From: a virus
Length of the DNA: 35,160 nt
Direction: 5' to 3' (one strand)
IMG/VR virus record: IMGVR_UViG_3300024517_001028
Coordinates: 1 to 35,160 of that record
Every line of letters starts with the position of its first letter. Positions within the stretch are counted from its first letter, which is position 1. A model generated the notes under the pieces. It was not told the DNA's origin. It searched no databases and saw only the letters and a list, made by a program, of their open reading frames with translations. Position numbers and translations under genes: made by a program. Shown in pieces: positions 2,934 through 30,184 of the stretch.

Positions 2934-3489
2934 ATTTAGAATACGCCATCAGAAGTGGAAACCCACTTCTGAGGCTATGGCTCGCGAACTGCACAATCAA
3001 CTCGAAATCGCTTCCCGAAAAGCTGTGCGTGAAATGTATGCGTCTATCTCTGTTTGGACGGGCCGCAGCGCAGGATCACTCCTGCCTGCGGCCCAAGCTC
3101 TTGGCATTCAATTGAACATTCAAGTCCCGAAAACAGTAGATTACACGACGAAAGAAGGCAAGAAACGTGTTTACAAGATTGTCGACCAAATTCAAAAAGG
3201 CTTGAGCGAAGGTAGTTTCTTCATTTCAGACCCTAAGCCTGGACAAAAGAGCTACACCGTACGCGTGAAGTCCGCCGTGCCTTATTTTGGCCAGAACGAT
3301 AATTTTGCCGTGAGTGGTCCACCACCTGCCTCTACAAAACCAGCCGCTTCTCACCACTGGAACCCTACGCCTTGGAACTCACAAGACAAAGGGATGACGC
3401 TTCTCGCGCAAGAGATGCACGAACGGGTTCCTAAAATCGCCTCCACACTCCTAGTGCGTGGAATGCACATAGTCCTCGAATACAGTTAA
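2914..3489 (+). CDS. Uncharacterised protein between chaperone and tape measure
   Basis: 191 residues; ATG 2914 overlaps the end of the GT frame and has the purine-rich GAAGAAGAG as ribosome site. N-terminal half is helical and basic (MARELHNQLEIASRKAVREMY), with VWTGRSAGSLLPAAQALGI, a pattern reminiscent of small neck or tail completion proteins of the HK97 gp10 type in which T-G-x-x-x-x-S is conserved. A Pro-rich stretch (GPPPASTKPAASHHWNPTPW) follows near residue 135. It probably belongs to tail or neck assembly from its place; the family is not certain. Confidence 0.5.
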   Translation: MINSATKFRIRHQKWKPTSEAMARELHNQLEIASRKAVREMYASISVWTGRSAGSLLPAAQALGIQLNIQVPKTVDYTTKEGKKRVYKIVDQIQKGLSEGSFFISDPKPGQKSYTVRVKSAVPYFGQNDNFAVSGPPPASTKPAASHHWNPTPWNSQDKGMTLLAQEMHERVPKIASTLLVRGMHIVLEYS

Positions 3490-17016: not shown

Positions 17017-17033
17017 CCTAAACATTGTTTAGG
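17017..17033. repeat. Dispersed 17-bp palindrome, copy 8
   Basis: CCTAAACA-T-TGTTTAGG, perfect; ends 18 bases before the ATG of the first ParB-like gene, just upstream of its ribosome site. Suited to autoregulation if that protein binds it. Confidence 0.9.
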
Positions 17034-17051
17034 CAAACAGGAGACAAGAAT

Positions 17052-18059
17052 ATGTCAACCAAACGTGAACAACTCACCATCGACCTCGACCTCATCAAAG
17101 AACCGCGGATCAAGTTGCGGGACGTCGATACCGACAGCACCTACTTCAAAGGCATCGTCGACACCCTGCGTGAAGACGGTCTGCTCAACCCGATCAACGT
17201 TGAGCGTTACGTCAAGTACAACGAAGAAGACCCCGAGAAGATCGACTTCGAAGGCTTCCGCATCGTTGACGGAATGCACCGTGTTTACGGCGCTCGTGAA
17301 CTCGGGTGGACCACCATCGAAGCTCTCGTCGGCGAACAAACGGACGAAGAAACTCTTCTCATCCGTTCGATGCTCGCCAACTTGGCACGCGTCGAAACCA
17401 AACCTGCTGAGTATGCTCGCGGGATCAAAGCCCTCCTCGACGCCAATCAGAACTGGACCGAAAACCAGTTGGCCACTCGCCTGGGTTGCCCCGCGTCCTT
17501 CATCAAGCAGCGCTTGAAGTTGAACAAGTTGGCTGAGTCGCTGAAAGGCAAGCTCGACAACGACGAAATGACTCTGAGCAAAGCGCAAGCTTTGGCAGAG
17601 CTTCCCGAAGCCGAACAGATCGAACTGTTCGGGACTTCCGAAGGCGAAGACAACGATGCGTTCCTCGCTCGTGTCTCGGATCGCAAGCGCGAAATCCAAC
17701 AGGCGTTGCGCGAACAGAAAAGCAACGAACCCGTCGTGTTCGAACCCGTGGCACGTCTGCGGAAAATCGTCGACGTTAAGACTGCAATGGACACTCCGGC
17801 TGAAATCGGAACCATTTGCGCCGCCGCCGGTGCCTCCAGCCCGCAGGAAGGAGCGATTGCCGCTCTCGCATGGATTCTGAACCTCGACAAGGAATCTGTC
17901 GAAGGCCAGAAAGCGGACTGGGACAAGCGCGAAGAAGACAAGAAAGCGAAAGCTGCCGCACGTACGGCTGGCAACGCTGCGAAGAAAGAAGCCAAGCTCC
18001 AGAAAGAGCTTGACGAAATTCGCGCAGCGAAAGCAGCCGCGGCGGACGCTGAGGGCTAA
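17052..18059 (+). CDS. ParB-like DNA-binding protein 1
   Basis: 335 residues. ATG 17052 has ACAGGAGACAAGAAT in front; an upstream TTG at 17025 lies in the palindrome and is rejected. The N-terminal half resembles the ParB/Spo0J nucleotide-binding domain: LREDGLLNPINVERY, DGMHRVYGARELGW (residues 73-86, in place of the GERR box), NLARVETKPAEYARGI near 110. A helix-turn-helix follows (NQLATRLGCPASFIKQRLKL, 138-157). The last 45 residues are a Lys/Ala/Glu-rich coiled coil. ParB proteins bind palindromic sites and can act in partition or regulation. No ParA lies in the window. The gene has strong codon bias and its own leader site and terminator, suggesting high expression. Confidence 0.75.
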   Translation: MSTKREQLTIDLDLIKEPRIKLRDVDTDSTYFKGIVDTLREDGLLNPINVERYVKYNEEDPEKIDFEGFRIVDGMHRVYGARELGWTTIEALVGEQTDEETLLIRSMLANLARVETKPAEYARGIKALLDANQNWTENQLATRLGCPASFIKQRLKLNKLAESLKGKLDNDEMTLSKAQALAELPEAEQIELFGTSEGEDNDAFLARVSDRKREIQQALREQKSNEPVVFEPVARLRKIVDVKTAMDTPAEIGTICAAAGASSPQEGAIAALAWILNLDKESVEGQKADWDKREEDKKAKAAARTAGNAAKKEAKLQKELDEIRAAKAAAADAEG

Positions 18060-19260: not shown

Positions 19261-21322
19261 ACCGCTCACAGCGGGTATCTATAAATTTAAACTACCGCAA
19301 CCGGCCTACAAAGGTAAGCGCCGGTTTGCGCTCGTACCCGTCGAAATTGAAGTCGTTAACGGAATGTATATCTTGGCATTCGGCTTCAATAACGTTATCA
19401 AAGATAAAGTCAAAACGCTGAAGAATCGTCGTTTTGATTGGGACACAAAGACTTGGCGCGCACCAGTGTGCCAACGTAACAATTTCAATCTTCGCCGTTT
19501 TATTGGCGAAGATGTTTTCGGCGACTACGACGCGGACCCAAACAATGTTGTGGTGACTTTTTCTCGCCCACTCTTCGACCACCAAAAAGATTTGGTTAAG
19601 CACGGTCTGAGCGCCAAGCGCGTAATCTGGGCCGCGGAAATGGGAACAGGTAAAACGTTAGCCGGTATCGAGCTGATGGAACGTAGCGGTAAGCGCGAGT
19701 GGTGGTGGGTCGGTCCGAAGTCCGCGGTCGCAGCCGTCAAACTAGACTTCCGTAAGTGGGACGCTCAGATCAAACCGACCTTTATGACTTACGAGGGCAT
19801 GGTTAAGCGTGTCAAAGAACATCCCGAGTACGTCCCAGAAGGCGTTATTTTTGACGAATCGTCGAAGCTCAAAACGGAAACAGCGAAACGCTCACAGTAC
19901 GCTTTAGCTCTCGCAAACGCAATCAGAGACGACCACGACGGGTACGTAATTCTGATGTCGGGAACACCCGCACCAAAAAGCCCTGTCGATTGGTGGAACC
20001 AGACTGAGGTTGCTTGCCCTGGCTTTCTACTGGAAGGTTCGGCAAACACTCTTCAATACCGCTTGGCTCACTTTGAGCAGTGCGAGGGTGTTGGCGGACA
20101 AACTTATCCGAAACTCGTCGCGTGGAAAGACAGCGATGATGTTTGTTCCGAGTGCGGTAAGCATGAGAACGATTTAGCGCACTCGCTACGAGCGTGTGAA
20201 CAAGCGGTCCAATCTAAACTGCAAGCAGCCGCGTTAGCGATGAAAGCGGCAATTAAAGCGGGCGACCTTGATAAACGTGTCGAGTGCAAAGAAACAATCG
20301 ACCGGCTTAAATTGGAACGCGAGCGCATCAAGCGGACCAAGGACCCTTTGGGTAAAACCCATCAGTTCGTGAGGGGCGTCAATGAAGTTGACCTCCTTTA
20401 TCAGCGCATGAAGGGGTTGACTCTTGTTAAGTGGAAGAAAGACTGTCTCGATTTGCCAGACAAGGTTTATCGGCGCGTCCATTGCGAGATTCCGCTCGCT
20501 TATAAGCGGGCCGCGGACCTTATTAAAGCGACTGAGAAACGCACGATCACGGCCTTGGCTAAACTCCGTGAGCTTAGTGACGGCTTCCTCTACGACAAAG
20601 AACAAGACGGAACAACCACCTGCCAAACCTGCGAAGGCAATGGTCAGTACGACTTTTGGTGGGATGAGGTTCGGCAAGAGCATGTTCTCGAAGGCGACCC
20701 CGACGACCCAAACATTGTTAGGGTGGTTGAAGCAACGTGCGACACCTGCAATGGTTCAGGCCAGGTTCCCAAGTACAAACCTGTGACCAAGAACATCGAA
20801 GGACCGAAAGAGAAAGTCCTTGCTGAACTTCTCGAAGAGTTCGACGGCGTAGGTCGCGTGGTAATCTTTGCGGGTTTCAAAGCGTCCATCGACAAATGTG
20901 TCGCCGTCTGTGACCGCGAGGGTTGGGAAACAATTCGTGTCGATGGTCGCGGTTGGAAAGCGTCATACACGGATCGTATCCTGCCGGAAGACGCCCTTTT
21001 GGATTTCCAATCGCCCGATCGCTTGCGGCAAAAGTGTGCCATCATTCTGCACCCGCAGTCTGGAGGCATGGGTTTAACCCTCACGGCGTCACCAGTGGCG
21101 ATTTACTACTCTAACGATTTTCAAGCGGAGAATCGTATTCAGTCGGAAGATCGTATCCACCGGACAGGCATGGACTTGAAACGCGGAGCGACGATCATCG
21201 ACATTACGTGTTTGGAAACCGATCAACTCATCCTCGACAACCTACAGAAAAAGCGCGACCTGCAACGAATGTCTATGGGCGACATTACAGCCGCTTTGGA
21301 GAAAGACAGTGACAGAACATAA
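19244..21322 (+). CDS. SNF2-like superfamily 2 helicase/ATPase with zinc knuckles
   Basis: 692 residues; ATG 19244 chosen because the longer frame (from 19109) only shadows the preceding gene. Motif I WAAEMGTGKTLAGIE near 130, motif II VIFDESSKLK near 203, motif III MSGTPAPKSP near 238, motif V-VI SGGMGLTLTASPVAIYYSND and RIQSEDRIHRTG near 631. Inserted between the two ATPase lobes are a CSECGKHENDLAHSLRACEQ segment near 300 and two CxxCxGxG knuckles (CQTCEGNG near 460, CDTCNGSG near 500) as in DnaJ. It probably remodels DNA or displaces proteins in replication or recombination. Palindrome copies 11 and 12 are inside the gene. Confidence 0.85.
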   Translation: MSCMYEPLTAGIYKFKLPQPAYKGKRRFALVPVEIEVVNGMYILAFGFNNVIKDKVKTLKNRRFDWDTKTWRAPVCQRNNFNLRRFIGEDVFGDYDADPNNVVVTFSRPLFDHQKDLVKHGLSAKRVIWAAEMGTGKTLAGIELMERSGKREWWWVGPKSAVAAVKLDFRKWDAQIKPTFMTYEGMVKRVKEHPEYVPEGVIFDESSKLKTETAKRSQYALALANAIRDDHDGYVILMSGTPAPKSPVDWWNQTEVACPGFLLEGSANTLQYRLAHFEQCEGVGGQTYPKLVAWKDSDDVCSECGKHENDLAHSLRACEQAVQSKLQAAALAMKAAIKAGDLDKRVECKETIDRLKLERERIKRTKDPLGKTHQFVRGVNEVDLLYQRMKGLTLVKWKKDCLDLPDKVYRRVHCEIPLAYKRAADLIKATEKRTITALAKLRELSDGFLYDKEQDGTTTCQTCEGNGQYDFWWDEVRQEHVLEGDPDDPNIVRVVEATCDTCNGSGQVPKYKPVTKNIEGPKEKVLAELLEEFDGVGRVVIFAGFKASIDKCVAVCDREGWETIRVDGRGWKASYTDRILPEDALLDFQSPDRLRQKCAIILHPQSGGMGLTLTASPVAIYYSNDFQAENRIQSEDRIHRTGMDLKRGATIIDITCLETDQLILDNLQKKRDLQRMSMGDITAALEKDSDRT
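19537..19553. repeat. Dispersed 17-bp palindrome, copy 11
   Basis: CCCAAACA-A-TGTTGTGG, inside the SNF2-like gene; read as CCA AAC AAT GTT GTG. Confidence 0.85.
20707..20723. repeat. Dispersed 17-bp palindrome, copy 12
   Basis: CCCAAACA-T-TGTTAGGG, inside the SNF2-like gene, in the loop between the two DnaJ-like knuckles; read as CCA AAC ATT GTT AGG. Same sequence as copy 4 but in another reading frame. Confidence 0.83.
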
Positions 21323-22139
21323 AACAAAAAGCATTCCCTTATCCTCAATTTTCGTGGATGAGAGTATAAACTCGCGGAGCAAGATCGGTTACTCCGACTA
21401 CTCGGCCTTGGCTCAAAACATTGCAGAACAAGGTCTGATTCAGCTTCCAGCCGTTGTAGCCCGCGAAAACGGGCAGTATCAGGTTATCGCCGGTTTCCGC
21501 CGCATGAGGGCTATCGAACACTTGAAATGGCCGGAAGTAACCTGTGTCGTGTACGAGGGGCTCACGGACGCGGAAATCATTAAGATTAACCTTACGGAAA
21601 ATCTTGAGCGCAAAGACCTAAATCCTCTGGAAGAAGCGATCACTCTTCGACGCTTCGCGGACACCGGTTACACTCCCGAGGAAATGGCTGAAGCTATCTC
21701 GCGATCCCCGCAATGGGTTTACTCGCGCCTGAGTATCCTAAGTCTTCCTGACCCCATTCAGGAAGATGTGGCAACCGGAGCGCTGACGCTCAAACAGGTA
21801 AAAGTCATTGAGGGTCTCTCCGAAGAAATGCAATACAATTACGTCCGGCTTTATAAAGAGCGCGCCGAGAAAGCATCGGACATTAAAGTGCATCTGAAAA
21901 GACACCAGAAGAAGATGCCACGCGTCTCGAAGGGCAAAGCGCGCACGCAAAGCGATATGGAGCGCGTGCGTGACTATCTTTATCACATGTTCGGTACGTC
22001 CATCGAAGTGATGGCGTTGCAGTGGGCAAGCGGTAACGTTACTTACGCGGCGCTGGAAAAGGAAATCGAAGAGCAAGCAAAGATGTTTAACATCACATAC
22101 AGGGGCATTGAAGAATATGAAAAATGTGATCGCGTTTAA
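21309..22139 (+). CDS. ParB/RepB/Spo0J-family protein 2
   Basis: 276 residues. GTG 21309 overlaps the helicase end by 14 bases and has TTGGAGAAAG in front. This is the more typical ParB of the two: IPLSSIFVDESINSRSK start, LAQNIAEQGLIQLPAVV, AGFRRMRAIEHLKWPEV near residue 61 (GERR box), INLTENLERKDLNPLEEAIT near 93-112 (the ENxxR...PxEEA box involved in CTP binding), then a helix-turn-helix (YTPEEMAEAISRSPQWVYSR) near 119. The C-terminal part is basic (KRHQKKMPRVSKGKAR), then a helical tail. In phages such proteins may serve partition of a plasmid prophage, gene control or nuclease functions. No ParA is seen. Confidence 0.82.
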   Translation: MTEHKTKSIPLSSIFVDESINSRSKIGYSDYSALAQNIAEQGLIQLPAVVARENGQYQVIAGFRRMRAIEHLKWPEVTCVVYEGLTDAEIIKINLTENLERKDLNPLEEAITLRRFADTGYTPEEMAEAISRSPQWVYSRLSILSLPDPIQEDVATGALTLKQVKVIEGLSEEMQYNYVRLYKERAEKASDIKVHLKRHQKKMPRVSKGKARTQSDMERVRDYLYHMFGTSIEVMALQWASGNVTYAALEKEIEEQAKMFNITYRGIEEYEKCDRV

Positions 22140-26252: not shown

Positions 26253-26767
26253 AGAAACTGAAACAGGACAATCCGTACAATTGTCTGGTTTACGCTCTTG
26301 GGATGGCCCTTGACGTGGAACCAGACACTTTGTACCGCTACCTCACGCACACCGGTCTAGGCGATAAACGCAAAGGCTTCGTGCCCGAGGAATTTTACAC
26401 TGCTGTCGTTGAGAATGGGCGTTTACCTATTCTCGCGCACGTTTCATCCTTTGACGGAAAGAACGAGTCTTTTTTAAATGTCGCCGCCCTAACAATGTTT
26501 GGGTACACACGAGCCATTCTCACGGTTCTCAAAACAGATATCACGCTCCACCACGCTCTCGCGTGGGACGGAGAAACCAAAACGCTTGTTGACCCCGCCA
26601 AAGGTGAAGAAGTGGATTTTAACGACTACACGATTATTGAAGCGCTCATGCTTCCAACGCACAAGGAGATTACGAAATGGGTACCCCAACACGGCTTGAA
26701 TTGCCAAACACAATATGCACTAGAGAGCTTCGATACGGAAACGAAGTTCATATTAAGGAACTTATAA
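26249..26767 (+). CDS. Papain/C39-like cysteine peptidase fold protein (putative)
   Basis: 172 residues. KQDNPYNCLVYALGMALDVE places a Cys at residue 12 at the start of a helix, LHHALAWDGETKTLVDPAKG gives His near 100 and Asp near 114 at strand ends. This Cys-His-Asp layout matches papain-like or C39-like peptidase folds common in phage small proteins. It could process a protein, or be an inactive relative that binds a peptide. Overlaps the previous gene (ATGA) and the next by 91 bases. Palindrome copy 16 encodes ALTMFGY near residue 83. Confidence 0.55.
   Translation: MKKLKQDNPYNCLVYALGMALDVEPDTLYRYLTHTGLGDKRKGFVPEEFYTAVVENGRLPILAHVSSFDGKNESFLNVAALTMFGYTRAILTVLKTDITLHHALAWDGETKTLVDPAKGEEVDFNDYTIIEALMLPTHKEITKWVPQHGLNCQTQYALESFDTETKFILRNL
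26487..26503. repeat. Dispersed 17-bp palindrome, copy 16
   Basis: CCCTAACA-A-TGTTTGGG, inside the cysteine-peptidase-like gene; read as CTA ACA ATG TTT GGG. Confidence 0.82.
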
Positions 26768-27294
26768 TCTTTCTCGAACCGATGGCGCGGAGAATCATTG
26801 CGGCATGGTGTTCAAAGTATCCTTACCGCTGCGCCGAAATCGAATCCGAAGGACTGTACGCTCTCACCTACACGGCAAATAACATCAAACACGATAACCC
26901 TATCGCGCAAGTGAAAAAGGCGATCGAAGGAATGATTCGCAATGCCGTGAAGGGTAATAAGGTGGTACACGTTCCGCGGTCCTTTCAGGACAAGAACAAA
27001 GATTACGGGCAAACGACTGTTGAACACACGGTGGCCCTCGCTCTTTTCGGCACAAGCGATGCCAGTCAGGAGGTTGTCGAGTTCTACGAATTTTGTTTGA
27101 GCAAGATGCACCTGACCGCTTTGGAAAAGCAAATCATTAAGTACCGTCGGCAAGAGATTTCCGATGACGACATAGCCAAAATGTTGGGATACACAACACG
27201 CCACATCCGAGCAATAAGAGTGGACCTTCATGCCCGATTCAATACCTTCCGATTCAACAAAAAGATCAGAGCCAGATTTTTTGGCGAAAGTTAG
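26677..27294 (+). CDS. Sigma-70-like factor (putative)
   Basis: 205 residues; ATG 26677 has AAGGAGATTACGAA in front, which supports this start despite a 91-base overlap. A region 2-like segment (LEPMARRIIAAWCSKYPYRC, AEIESEGLYALTYTANNIKH, KKAIEGMIRNAV), then VHVPRSF as in region 3, and a region 4-like helix-turn-helix (LTALEKQIIKYRRQEISDDD, IAKMLGYTTRHIRAIRVDLH). This layout is that of small sigma factors. It could direct host polymerase to late phage promoters. No late promoter motif is apparent, so the role is inferred. Confidence 0.62.
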   Translation: MGTPTRLELPNTICTRELRYGNEVHIKELIIFLEPMARRIIAAWCSKYPYRCAEIESEGLYALTYTANNIKHDNPIAQVKKAIEGMIRNAVKGNKVVHVPRSFQDKNKDYGQTTVEHTVALALFGTSDASQEVVEFYEFCLSKMHLTALEKQIIKYRRQEISDDDIAKMLGYTTRHIRAIRVDLHARFNTFRFNKKIRARFFGES

Positions 27295-27529
27295 AAGCGC
27301 TATCGCAGCAGGTTCTCGTGTCGCGGTGTGCCTCGTTGATGGGGACAAAGTCCTTGTCGATTTGGACGAACGCGATCGGCGATTAGCCATTTGCGAACAG
27401 TGCGAGAACTTTCAAGCCGCTGACGTTACTTGTCGGCTTTGCGGGTGTTATCTCAACCTCAAAAAGACACTATCCACAGAAACTTGTCGGTTGGGCAAGT
27501 GGCCAAAGAGCGACCCAAACAATGTTTAG
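27230..27529 (+). CDS. Small zinc-ribbon protein
   Basis: 99 residues; ATG 27230 inside the end of the sigma-like gene. The C-terminal half, RLAICEQCENFQAADVTCRL with CGCYLNLKKTLSTETCRLGK following, has CxxC...CxxC-G-C...C spacing of a zinc ribbon as found in many small phage proteins. The N-terminal half is polar. Its stop codon TAG is part of palindrome copy 17 (DPNNV-stop). Confidence 0.68.
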   Translation: MPDSIPSDSTKRSEPDFLAKVRSAIAAGSRVAVCLVDGDKVLVDLDERDRRLAICEQCENFQAADVTCRLCGCYLNLKKTLSTETCRLGKWPKSDPNNV

Positions 27530-27587: not shown

Positions 27588-27938
27588 ATGGAAACGAAAC
27601 TAAACTTCATCCAGCAAAATCACTGGATTGACCAGCGCGAGGTGCGAAGCCACCTTTGCGACAATGTCACAATCACGATCACTTCAACCACACGTCCGAG
27701 TGGGTTGGATTTTTGGTGTTTGTACTTGACGCTCGATGCCCCAGTTCTGCGGGCCGCGGTCGCAATACCGATGACCCGCGAGTTGACGAAACTCGACAAA
27801 CGACACACCACAACAATGTTTGGGTGGGACTATCCCGAGTACGCCGAAAGCGGCCTTGCTCCGCGGAACATCATACCTGAACAAGTAATTAAAGACGCAC
27901 ACACCATTCTCGAATGGGTGTTAAGGGGAATGAAATGA
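27588..27938 (+). CDS. Uncharacterised protein, parent of the chimeric relic
   Basis: 116 residues, strong ribosome site CCAAGGAGAACAAA. Contains FWCLYLTLDAPVLRAAVAIP and ends RNIIPEQVIKDAHTILEWVL. That last segment recurs in the next small gene. No family recognised. Palindrome copy 18 encodes TTTMFGW near residue 75. Confidence 0.68.
   Translation: METKLNFIQQNHWIDQREVRSHLCDNVTITITSTTRPSGLDFWCLYLTLDAPVLRAAVAIPMTRELTKLDKRHTTTMFGWDYPEYAESGLAPRNIIPEQVIKDAHTILEWVLRGMK
27808..27824. repeat. Dispersed 17-bp palindrome, copy 18
   Basis: CCACAACA-A-TGTTTGGG, inside the gene above; read as ACA ACA ATG TTT GGG. Confidence 0.82.
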
Positions 27939-28132
27939 GTAAAATTGGTATCTACCACAGTGCCGACAACGACGGCCTCGCTTGCGGAGCCATCCTTCAC
28001 CAGCAAGGGTACGAAGTCATCGGCTTCGACTACAATGAGTTTAAAGGTGAGCGTTTGCTCTCAATGAATATCATCCCTGAAACTGTGGTCAACGATGCAC
28101 ACGCACTTCTAAATTGGTTGGTGACGCTATGA
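27935..28132 (+). CDS. Chimeric small ORF: DHH N-terminus joined to a C-terminus like the gene before it
   Basis: 65 residues; ATG 27935 overlaps the preceding stop (ATGA), with AAGGGGAATGAA as ribosome site. Residues 2-36 (SKIGIYHSADNDGLACGAIL and following) match the start of the DHH phosphoesterase gene that comes next (MKLGIYDRTDFDGKACGALL). Residues 44-65 (MNIIPETVVNDAHALLNWLV) match the C-terminus of the 116-residue gene before it. It looks like the junction of a tandem duplication of the two genes followed by internal deletion. The frame is kept open and coupled, so a peptide may still be made; it lacks the DHH motif and is unlikely to be an active phosphoesterase. Confidence 0.65.
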   Translation: MSKIGIYHSADNDGLACGAILHQQGYEVIGFDYNEFKGERLLSMNIIPETVVNDAHALLNWLVTL

Positions 28133-28974
28133 AACTCGGCATTTACGACAGGACAGATTTCGACGGTAAAGCTTGCGGCGCGTTGCTACGAGAAATGGGT
28201 TGCCAAACCTTGCCTTACAATTATGGCGATAAGCTTCCATTACTCAGCGGGCTAACGGGCTACCAAGAGCTTTGGATTTGTGATACCTGCCTTCCAGACG
28301 ATATGATGCTTGACCTCGCGGCTATTTATGGTAGTCGCTTCCACTGGGTCGATCACCATAAATGTGCGTTCTTAAAGCTTGGTGAGCAAATTCGTAAGCT
28401 CAGAGGCATTGTTCACTATTCGCCTGATGACGCAGCTTGCTACGGGTTAGCTGAAATTGAGGGTATGCTCTTAACAGGGCACACAAACTTAGAGTGGCTT
28501 TCAGACTACGACACTTGGAAGCTCGGCTCAGGTAACTACGTTCTGGGCCACCAAACACAAGCCAATAGAATGTGGGGATGCTTAACGGCTGAACAGCTTG
28601 TCCATTCTGACAGCTTTCTCGGATGGCTCCGCGCTCCTGTGGATTCTGATTTTGTCGCCAAGGGTAGAAATCTGGTGAACTACAACCTTCAACAGTATAG
28701 GGCGTTAATTGCTGCTTACGGTTACGCTGTAAATTTCCAGAATCTGGACGCGCTAGCCATCAACACGCCATTAGTGGACTCGTATATGTTTGAGTCGGTG
28801 CGGGATAACTATGAAATCTGTATCGCTTACTATTGGAACGCGGAGCGAGACTCTTGGAAGTACAGTATCCGTTCAAATAACATTGGCGTCGATTGCGGTT
28901 TTATTGCCGACAACTACGGAGGCGGAGGCCATAAAGGGGCCGCAGGTTTCAGCACAAAGAAGTTAATACTATGA
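28129..28974 (+). CDS. DHH/DHHA1 family phosphoesterase
   Basis: 281 residues from ATG 28129 (ATGA overlap). Motifs: LGIYDRTDFDGKACGALL (metal Asp pair), WICDTCLPDD near 50, FHWVDHHKC near 73 (the DHH motif), a later Asp in WLSDYDTWKLG, and GGGGHKGAAGF near the C-terminus (DHHA1 motif). Relatives hydrolyse short RNA or DNA oligonucleotides, pAp or cyclic dinucleotides. Possible phage roles are nucleotide recycling or removal of host signalling nucleotides; the sequence does not decide. Confidence 0.87.
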   Translation: MKLGIYDRTDFDGKACGALLREMGCQTLPYNYGDKLPLLSGLTGYQELWICDTCLPDDMMLDLAAIYGSRFHWVDHHKCAFLKLGEQIRKLRGIVHYSPDDAACYGLAEIEGMLLTGHTNLEWLSDYDTWKLGSGNYVLGHQTQANRMWGCLTAEQLVHSDSFLGWLRAPVDSDFVAKGRNLVNYNLQQYRALIAAYGYAVNFQNLDALAINTPLVDSYMFESVRDNYEICIAYYWNAERDSWKYSIRSNNIGVDCGFIADNYGGGGHKGAAGFSTKKLIL

Positions 28975-29141
28975 GCGACCCTGATAAGATTTGCGAGAAC
29001 TGTAAACACAGTGTTGTTCACATTGAGCGTGATCGTCAAGCCTACTACACTTGCCACGTTTACGCTGAACCTGTGGACGTACGAGGGTCCGCGACTTGTC
29101 CCTTGTTTGAATACTTCCTACCAAAAGGAGAACGGAAATGA
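28971..29141 (+). CDS. Small Cys4 zinc-binding protein
   Basis: 56 residues, overlapping both the DHH stop and the helicase start (ATGA each side). CENCKHSVVHIERDRQAYYT then CHVYAEP...GSATCPLFEYF: four cysteines spaced CxxC-x(n)-C-x(n)-C as in a small zinc finger; an aromatic run YYTCHVY is typical of zinc-ribbon hairpins. The unbroken chain of overlaps strongly supports it as a gene. Confidence 0.72.
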   Translation: MSDPDKICENCKHSVVHIERDRQAYYTCHVYAEPVDVRGSATCPLFEYFLPKGERK

Positions 29142-30184
29142 TCGAACTAACAGTTGAACAACAAGGTGCTATCGCGGCCATTGAAGCGTGGTACAAGGGT
29201 GACAAGCAGATTTTTAAACTGTTTGGACCTGCCGGTTCCGGTAAGTCGTTCCTTTCGTATGCCATTCTTGAGACATTGGGTGTCCCTTTTGTCCAAGTGG
29301 TTTACACCGGTAAAGGCGCACAGGTCTTGAAGGAGAAGTCTGGGCATCCGACGCACACGATCCATCGAGCCATTTACAAATGCGTTTCACCTCCTGGCCG
29401 ACCGCCAACATACGTGTTCAATGACAAATCGCCTTTGAGTAAAGTGCCGCTTACTGTCGTCGATGAGGGCGGTATGGTCGGAGCGCGGATCGTTGCTGAC
29501 CTTAAACGCGCAGCAAACCGTATCTTGGTCCTCGGCGATCCACACCAATTGCCCCCGATTAAAGACAGTCTGTCTGAGTTGCAGAAGAATCCTGATTATC
29601 AGCTCACGGAGATTCACCGTCAAGCAGAGGGTTCCCCGATCCTCGAAATGGCGACGAGAGCGCGGAACGGGTTACACGTTCCGACGACTGTGAATCATCG
29701 TGATGTTAACTACGAAGATTACGATGTCGTCCTCGTCGGTCGAAATAATACGCGTAAAGCTATTATCCAGTCGGAACGTAAGCGCCAAGGTCTACCAGGC
29801 AATCGTGTCGAAGTTGGCGAGCGTCTGATCTGTATTCGCAACAATCACGACCTCGGTATCATGAACGGTACGATGTGGCACGTTCTCGGAGTCAGGGGTG
29901 AGCAACTGCTCGTCGCTTCCGAGGACGATGCCGAGCCTATTACCGTGGACTACGACCCGAAGGTTCTGTTCGAGAAAATTACGTGGCAGAAATCAGATCA
30001 CCTGCTCAACAAAGGAGCGGCGTTCTTCTACTTCTCAAATGCGATTACGGTCCACAAGGCCCAAGGTTCGGAGTGGGATAGTGTCCTACTCGTCGATGAG
30101 AGTTTCTGCTTCCGCGATAACGCGAGGAAGTGGCTCTACACAGGAATCACCCGCGCAGCTAAACACTTGGATATTGTACGATGA
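29138..30184 (+). CDS. Superfamily 1B helicase (Dda/RecD-like)
   Basis: 348 residues; ribosome site AAAAGGAGAACGGAA. Motif I KLFGPAGSGKSFLS near 28-40, motif II LTVVDEGGMVGA near 105, motif III RILVLGDPHQLPPIKD near 127-142, motif IV-like LTEIHRQAEGSP near 155, and C-terminal UvrD_C2 motifs AITVHKAQGSEWDSVLLVDE near 302 and WLYTGITRAAKHLDIV at the end. It would be a 5'-3' DNA helicase used in replication restart or origin melting, as Dda is in T4. Motif II reads DEGG, a variation on DEAx. Confidence 0.88.
   Translation: MIELTVEQQGAIAAIEAWYKGDKQIFKLFGPAGSGKSFLSYAILETLGVPFVQVVYTGKGAQVLKEKSGHPTHTIHRAIYKCVSPPGRPPTYVFNDKSPLSKVPLTVVDEGGMVGARIVADLKRAANRILVLGDPHQLPPIKDSLSELQKNPDYQLTEIHRQAEGSPILEMATRARNGLHVPTTVNHRDVNYEDYDVVLVGRNNTRKAIIQSERKRQGLPGNRVEVGERLICIRNNHDLGIMNGTMWHVLGVRGEQLLVASEDDAEPITVDYDPKVLFEKITWQKSDHLLNKGAAFFYFSNAITVHKAQGSEWDSVLLVDESFCFRDNARKWLYTGITRAAKHLDIVR

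Follow-up and report, generated by a model that had tools for sequence, protein, structure and literature searches.

Tandem duplications that ignore gene boundaries are reported to make chimeric genes in Drosophila yakuba (PMC5460883); as described there, a single duplication joins the 5' end of one gene to the 3' end of its neighbour, and the parent genes remain. In Drosophila melanogaster, Sdic is likewise described as a chimera of two neighbouring genes, both of which are retained, formed by a segmental duplication that was followed by fusing deletions and later by tandem expansion (PMC7475035). For phages, a literature search judged by titles and by the openings of abstracts returned no example of such a junction chimera.

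Here we describe a gene of this kind in a virus record of 35,160 bases (IMGVR_UViG_3300024517_001028), the whole of which we call the window. The gene, B (27935-28132, + strand), has 65 codons running from an ATG at 27935 to a stop at 28132, and joins the start of its downstream neighbour, D, to the end of its upstream neighbour, A. Gene A (27588-27938, + strand; 116 aa), the upstream parent, comes from the list of open reading frames and is without a known family: it had no match in PHROGs, Pfam, NCBIfam or PADLOC. Gene B gave weak matches alone in the same four libraries (best E 0.038). Gene D (28129-28974, + strand; ATG at 28129), the downstream parent, encodes a DHH/DHHA1 phosphoesterase of 281 aa. 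It is followed by E (28971-29141, + strand), a Cys-rich protein of 56 aa, and by a Dda-like helicase (29138-30184, + strand; phrog_325, E 3.3e-75). These five consecutive genes are joined by four ATGA overlaps in a row: A/B at 27935-27938 and B/D at 28129-28132 (both + strand), D/E at 28971, and E/helicase at 29138. Three further junctions with ATGA or GTGA occur among the 26 genes listed. Small Cys-rich proteins (27230-27529 and 28971-29141) flank A-B-D and look alike by eye; the first of them matches DUF6171 (E 1.2e-7).

Gene B represents a known kind of event, in which a tandem duplication spanning a gene boundary creates a chimeric gene, and its likely history is simpler than that first proposed for it. 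It differs from the D. yakuba chimeras as described (PMC5460883) in lying in a phage operon, in having a unit of about 200 bp within overlapping genes, and in being known here from sequence alone; its repeat copies are only about 55% identical, and they are consequently either old or were already diverged when joined. Compared with Sdic as described (PMC7475035), B needs no deletion and is present in a single copy.

The first-pass annotation had claimed that the 65-codon gene begins like the DHH gene and ends like the gene preceding it, and protein alignment confirmed that B is a real chimera. Residues 3-35 of B (27941-28039, + strand), which form a DHH-like beta-alpha-beta unit with motif I (YHxxDxDG), align with D 2-34 at a score of 85 (14/33 identical; best of 5000 shuffles of B, 58). 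Residues 28-63 (28016-28123, + strand), an A-like strand and terminal helix with a predicted strand at 27-31 and helix at 49-64, align with A 77-112 (27816-27923, + strand) at a score of 92 (16/36 identical; best of 5000 shuffles, 50). Neither half's score was attained by any of the 5000 shuffles. The A and D proteins show no similarity to each other: their score of 34 was attained by 578 of 5000 shuffles. The two alignments overlap at a seam, B residues 28-35 (28016-28039, + strand), where VIGFDYNE of B aligns both with MFGWDYPE of A and with TLPYNYGD of D; several other DHH proteins carry GYDY, GWDY or GLDY at this position.

The pairwise resemblance that had been suspected across the locus is also present at the DNA level. 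The end of A plus the start of B (27816-28020, + strand) and the end of B plus the start of D (28016-28214, + strand) are two imperfect tandem copies of a single continuous direct repeat; identical letters fill 107 of the 196 aligned columns. This repeat has a local DNA score of 71, and none of 5000 pairs of adjacent stretches, drawn from the window with the A-B-D locus excluded, scored above 44; when the locus was included, 2 of 2000 pairs reached 71, and these are presumably the locus itself.

We compared the DHH half of B with a set of 96 DHH loci, comprising 37 viral loci, 56 bacterial or archaeal genome loci and three phage records. A second viral DHH scan returned loci already in the set, with no additions among the matches listed. 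Complete N-termini were available for 62 DHH relatives, near-duplicates being retained. Aligned with each other, the N-termini of B and D reach 85; the best scores among these 62 are 64 for B and 61 for D. Counted directly in B, 19 residues separate the motif-I Gly from the beta-2 Tyr; by profile alignment the spacing is also 19 in D and at least 21 in the other 62. In addition, B and D have in common the Cys of 'ACGA', which is present in 1 of the 62 relatives. No second DHH ORF was matched in the 96 other DHH loci. Because B and D are reciprocal best matches and share a spacing shorter than in any of the 62 as well as an uncommon Cys, we conclude that the DHH part of B is a local copy and that, judged against these relatives, B and D share derived features. 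The claim that B arose by local duplication is upheld by these features. For the A half, a local origin is suggested by the strong match to A, and no homologue of A was found outside the window in the collections searched.

Searches for relatives of the locus yielded little. In IMG/VR there was no convincing relative carrying A or B, and phage records gave matches to A and B at E 0.8 or worse. Nothing matched A or B at E 1e-2 or better in the 96 DHH loci, the nearest match being that of a DHH ORF (locus L092) with the N-terminal half of B (E 0.023). Eighty distant helicase loci contained no match to A or B up to E 1, and one weak match to gene E (0.38). For D, no close relative was found in IMG/VR, plasmids or genome contigs, and phage records gave two weak matches (E 7e-4 and 0.8). 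A polymerase scan had as its sole find a near-identical contig (G001), which ends at about window position 26670, before A-B-D. Another contig, L185 (IMGVR_UViG_3300035512_000599), found through the 19-bp sites described below, had no A, B or D/DHH match in the 11 kb examined. Some of the 80 helicase loci carry RecJ/DHH genes upstream of the helicase. In five loci (L070, L074, L075, L079 and L080), ORFs of 133-138 aa upstream of Dda-like helicases match the DHH profile, and in four others (L073, L078, L081 and L085) long ORFs of 577-594 aa occupy the same position; the short ORFs are possibly split or interrupted RecJ-type genes.

Gene D matches phrog_4771 (E 1.5e-23) and carries a DHH motif and a GGGGHKGAAGF end of the GGGH-type DHHA1 kind, with a Pfam DHHA1 score of 20.9 bits, under the cut-off of 25.9. 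The motif-I His is found in 55 of the 62 relatives; B keeps this His and D has Asp, given which the metal site of D may differ from that of the family. Like the DHH/DHHA1 phosphoesterases (phrog_4771; the RecJ and NrnA superfamily), B has the first beta-alpha-beta unit with motif I (H/D, D, D, G; here YHSADNDG), and its first 36 residues score 16.2 bits against the DHH-family HMM, compared with 13.2 bits for the first 35 of D. In contrast to these enzymes, B has no DHH motif, later motifs or DHHA1 domain. Its HMM match stops at model position 36 of 280, and B on its own therefore cannot act as a catalytic DHH enzyme; it is a fragment rather than a family enzyme. A structure model of B (mean pLDDT 75.7, from a seven-row alignment) has a strand at 4-8, a helix at 12-23, a strand at 27-31 and a helix at 49-64, which suggests that a small strand-helix-strand-helix fold is feasible. 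Against the PDB, this model matched nothing at E <= 0.001 (best E 0.49; RecJ 2zxo at rank 35, E 1.7). The model of A was poor (pLDDT 61.5), and its best viral structural match, at E 0.011, was to an unnamed entry. Neither model is counted as evidence of function.

From these results, we think it likely that B is the junction gene of a single short tandem duplication or, equivalently, of one unequal exchange between two copies of phage DNA. Ancestrally, D would have followed directly after A with a 4-base overlap, an order that we infer, the searches having turned up no relative in which A and D simply adjoin. Recombination or template switching would then have joined the second beta-strand of D, with ancestral codons of about G-x-D-Y, to the GWDY strand of A. 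At the seam, the ancestral D was probably enough like A to pair with it, since other DHH proteins read GYDY, GWDY or GLDY there and the seam aligns with both parents. Such a joining would repeat roughly 195-200 bp, from the end of A through the start of D, and would yield A, a fusion of the D start to the A end, and D, leaving both parents intact and copying the ATGA and the ribosome-binding site; the reading frame would follow from in-frame joining, with no deletion required. Both parents are present and open, in tandem order around B.

The window also contains a dispersed 19-bp palindrome (consensus ACCYAAACAWTGTTTRGGT), which occurs 18 times at up to 3 mismatches, against 0.01 expected. The sites start at 443, 2233, 8192, 10790, 13004, 16570, 17016, 18153, 19536, 20706, 22271, 24951, 26486, 27513, 27807, 30510, 32433 and 35093, and sit both inside and between genes. 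The near-identical contig has 23 such places, many of which coincide with sites of the window when coordinates are compared. In L185, four copies lie within about 185 bp (3036-3219), two exact and two with 1-2 mismatches, and a Bro-N gene and terminase genes lie downstream of them. Two ParB-type proteins (17025-18059 and 21309-22139) are encoded in the window, and a good guess is therefore that the palindromes are a dispersed set of partition or repressor-type sites. We rejected the idea that they drove the duplication: the site at 27807-27825 spans the breakpoint codons of A, yet the B seam and its D counterpart match that site no better than about 12% of the window's 21-nt stretches do.

The origin of B by a single joining is compatible with a variant in which one unequal exchange occurred between co-infecting phages that had already diverged. 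B would then be recent, its divergence from A and D would be inherited, and B would not have to be under selection. The two halves of B are about equally diverged, synonymous positions are near saturation, and B retains an ancestral residue that D lost, all of which fit this variant. There is no mosaic break in codon usage at the junction, a result that lends the variant no support but is compatible with it; and the 19-bp sites lie on both sides of the junction, as they would within one genome, although related phages could share them. A perfect 200-bp tandem repeat is prone to deletion, and the variant dispenses with the survival of one. We hold the full variant to be quite possible, if somewhat short of an even chance. 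Because a fresh perfect repeat of this length would readily be deleted again, we lean slightly towards a divergence of the copies that preceded the recombination of two related phages, rather than one that took place in this genome.

Whether B is kept bears on a second alternative, in which B is a relic, useless or untranslated, with a frame left open by chance. Over 61 codons aligned between B and its parents, the distance is 1.70 at position 3 and 0.49 at positions 1+2; we used codon-position distances instead of a standard dN/dS because synonymous sites were saturated. The ratio of positions 1+2 to position 3 has a bootstrap median of 0.28 (0.07-0.53), and 3.8% of bootstraps exceed 0.5, the value expected if B had drifted freely for half the time with the parents unchanged at positions 1+2. 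Identity to the parents is 26/61 residues; among 5000 neutral simulations set to the observed DNA identity, the highest count was 24 and none attained 26. We argue that B is not visibly decaying, since position 3 is near saturation while positions 1+2 are not, the DHH profile score of B is at least that of D over the same residues, and the motif-I His is retained. The codon-position data favour amino-acid constraint, with a modest signal. Part of the divergence lies on the parents' side, and part of the constraint may be older than the fusion if the recombining phages had already diverged; these data do not prove selection on B itself, because in that case the constraint would have acted on the parents before the joining. 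The relic reading draws on the roughly 10% of neutral simulations at d=0.9 that leave the 65-codon frame stop-free, and on the lack of a convincing family match for B in four libraries; against it stand the codon-position contrast, the residue identity, the profile score and a strong ribosome-binding site at B. On balance, we consider it doubtful. The first-pass annotation had argued for retention from the survival of the frame and the ATGA couplings. Retention is favoured by the codon positions; survival of the ATGA is weak evidence, because it is the rule in this operon and was copied with the unit.

The ribosome-binding site of B is estimated at -8.3 kcal/mol and that of D, which is weaker, at -4.7 kcal/mol; the repeat alignment has a 9-base gap in the end of B about where the end of A has AAGGGG. 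Gene B would thus have kept the strong site from the end of A and would be translated, and D would start from the stop of B. Since the site of D is the weaker one, D is likely reached by ribosomes finishing B, which probably couples its translation to that of B. Such coupling would not by itself keep the amino acids of B conserved, and a role as a small protein is possible; B would then persist as a small beta-alpha-beta-alpha protein. A more specific proposal, which we regard as a long shot, is that B arose in an already diverged state, from an unequal exchange between two related phages, and was retained because it works as a small protein. It would be a detached motif-I beta-alpha-beta unit with the His that D lost, docking on D, or on a partner of A through its A-type helix, and tuning or completing D.

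The history offered in the first-pass annotation as the simplest, duplication of the whole pair (A-D-A-D) followed by a deletion that ran from within the first D into the second A, loses that standing, because a single tandem duplication across the A/D boundary gives the same arrangement. The two-step history does yield the same gene order and homologies, and it has a precedent in Sdic, described as two neighbours that were duplicated and then fused through deletions (PMC7475035). It calls for a second event with its own breakpoints where a single one is enough, and no extra remnant of A or D can be seen between B and D, whose reading frames share 4 bases. We consider it unlikely; as both histories lead to the same end state, our preference for a single event is one of parsimony. 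That B is an independent gene family resembling its neighbours by chance or convergence is very improbable: the G-[WYL]-D-Y patch near the seam does recur in several DHH proteins and is not diagnostic by itself, but both halves beat 5000 shuffles, the repeat extends to the DNA, B and D have the derived spacing and Cys in common, and the searches made found no relative of B elsewhere.

Together, these results point to a compact form of gene birth in a phage operon, in which a single misaligned join, at a short protein motif common to both parents, would place a third gene between them and leave them intact. A junction gene of this type comes with a start, a stop, a ribosome-binding site and a 4-base overlap. 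If the exchange between diverged relatives is true, the new gene would have been stable from birth, easing the known loss of fresh tandem repeats. Junction genes may explain some of the small ORFs without families in phage operons, and a systematic search for them, as ORFs that begin like the following gene and end like the preceding one, is feasible.
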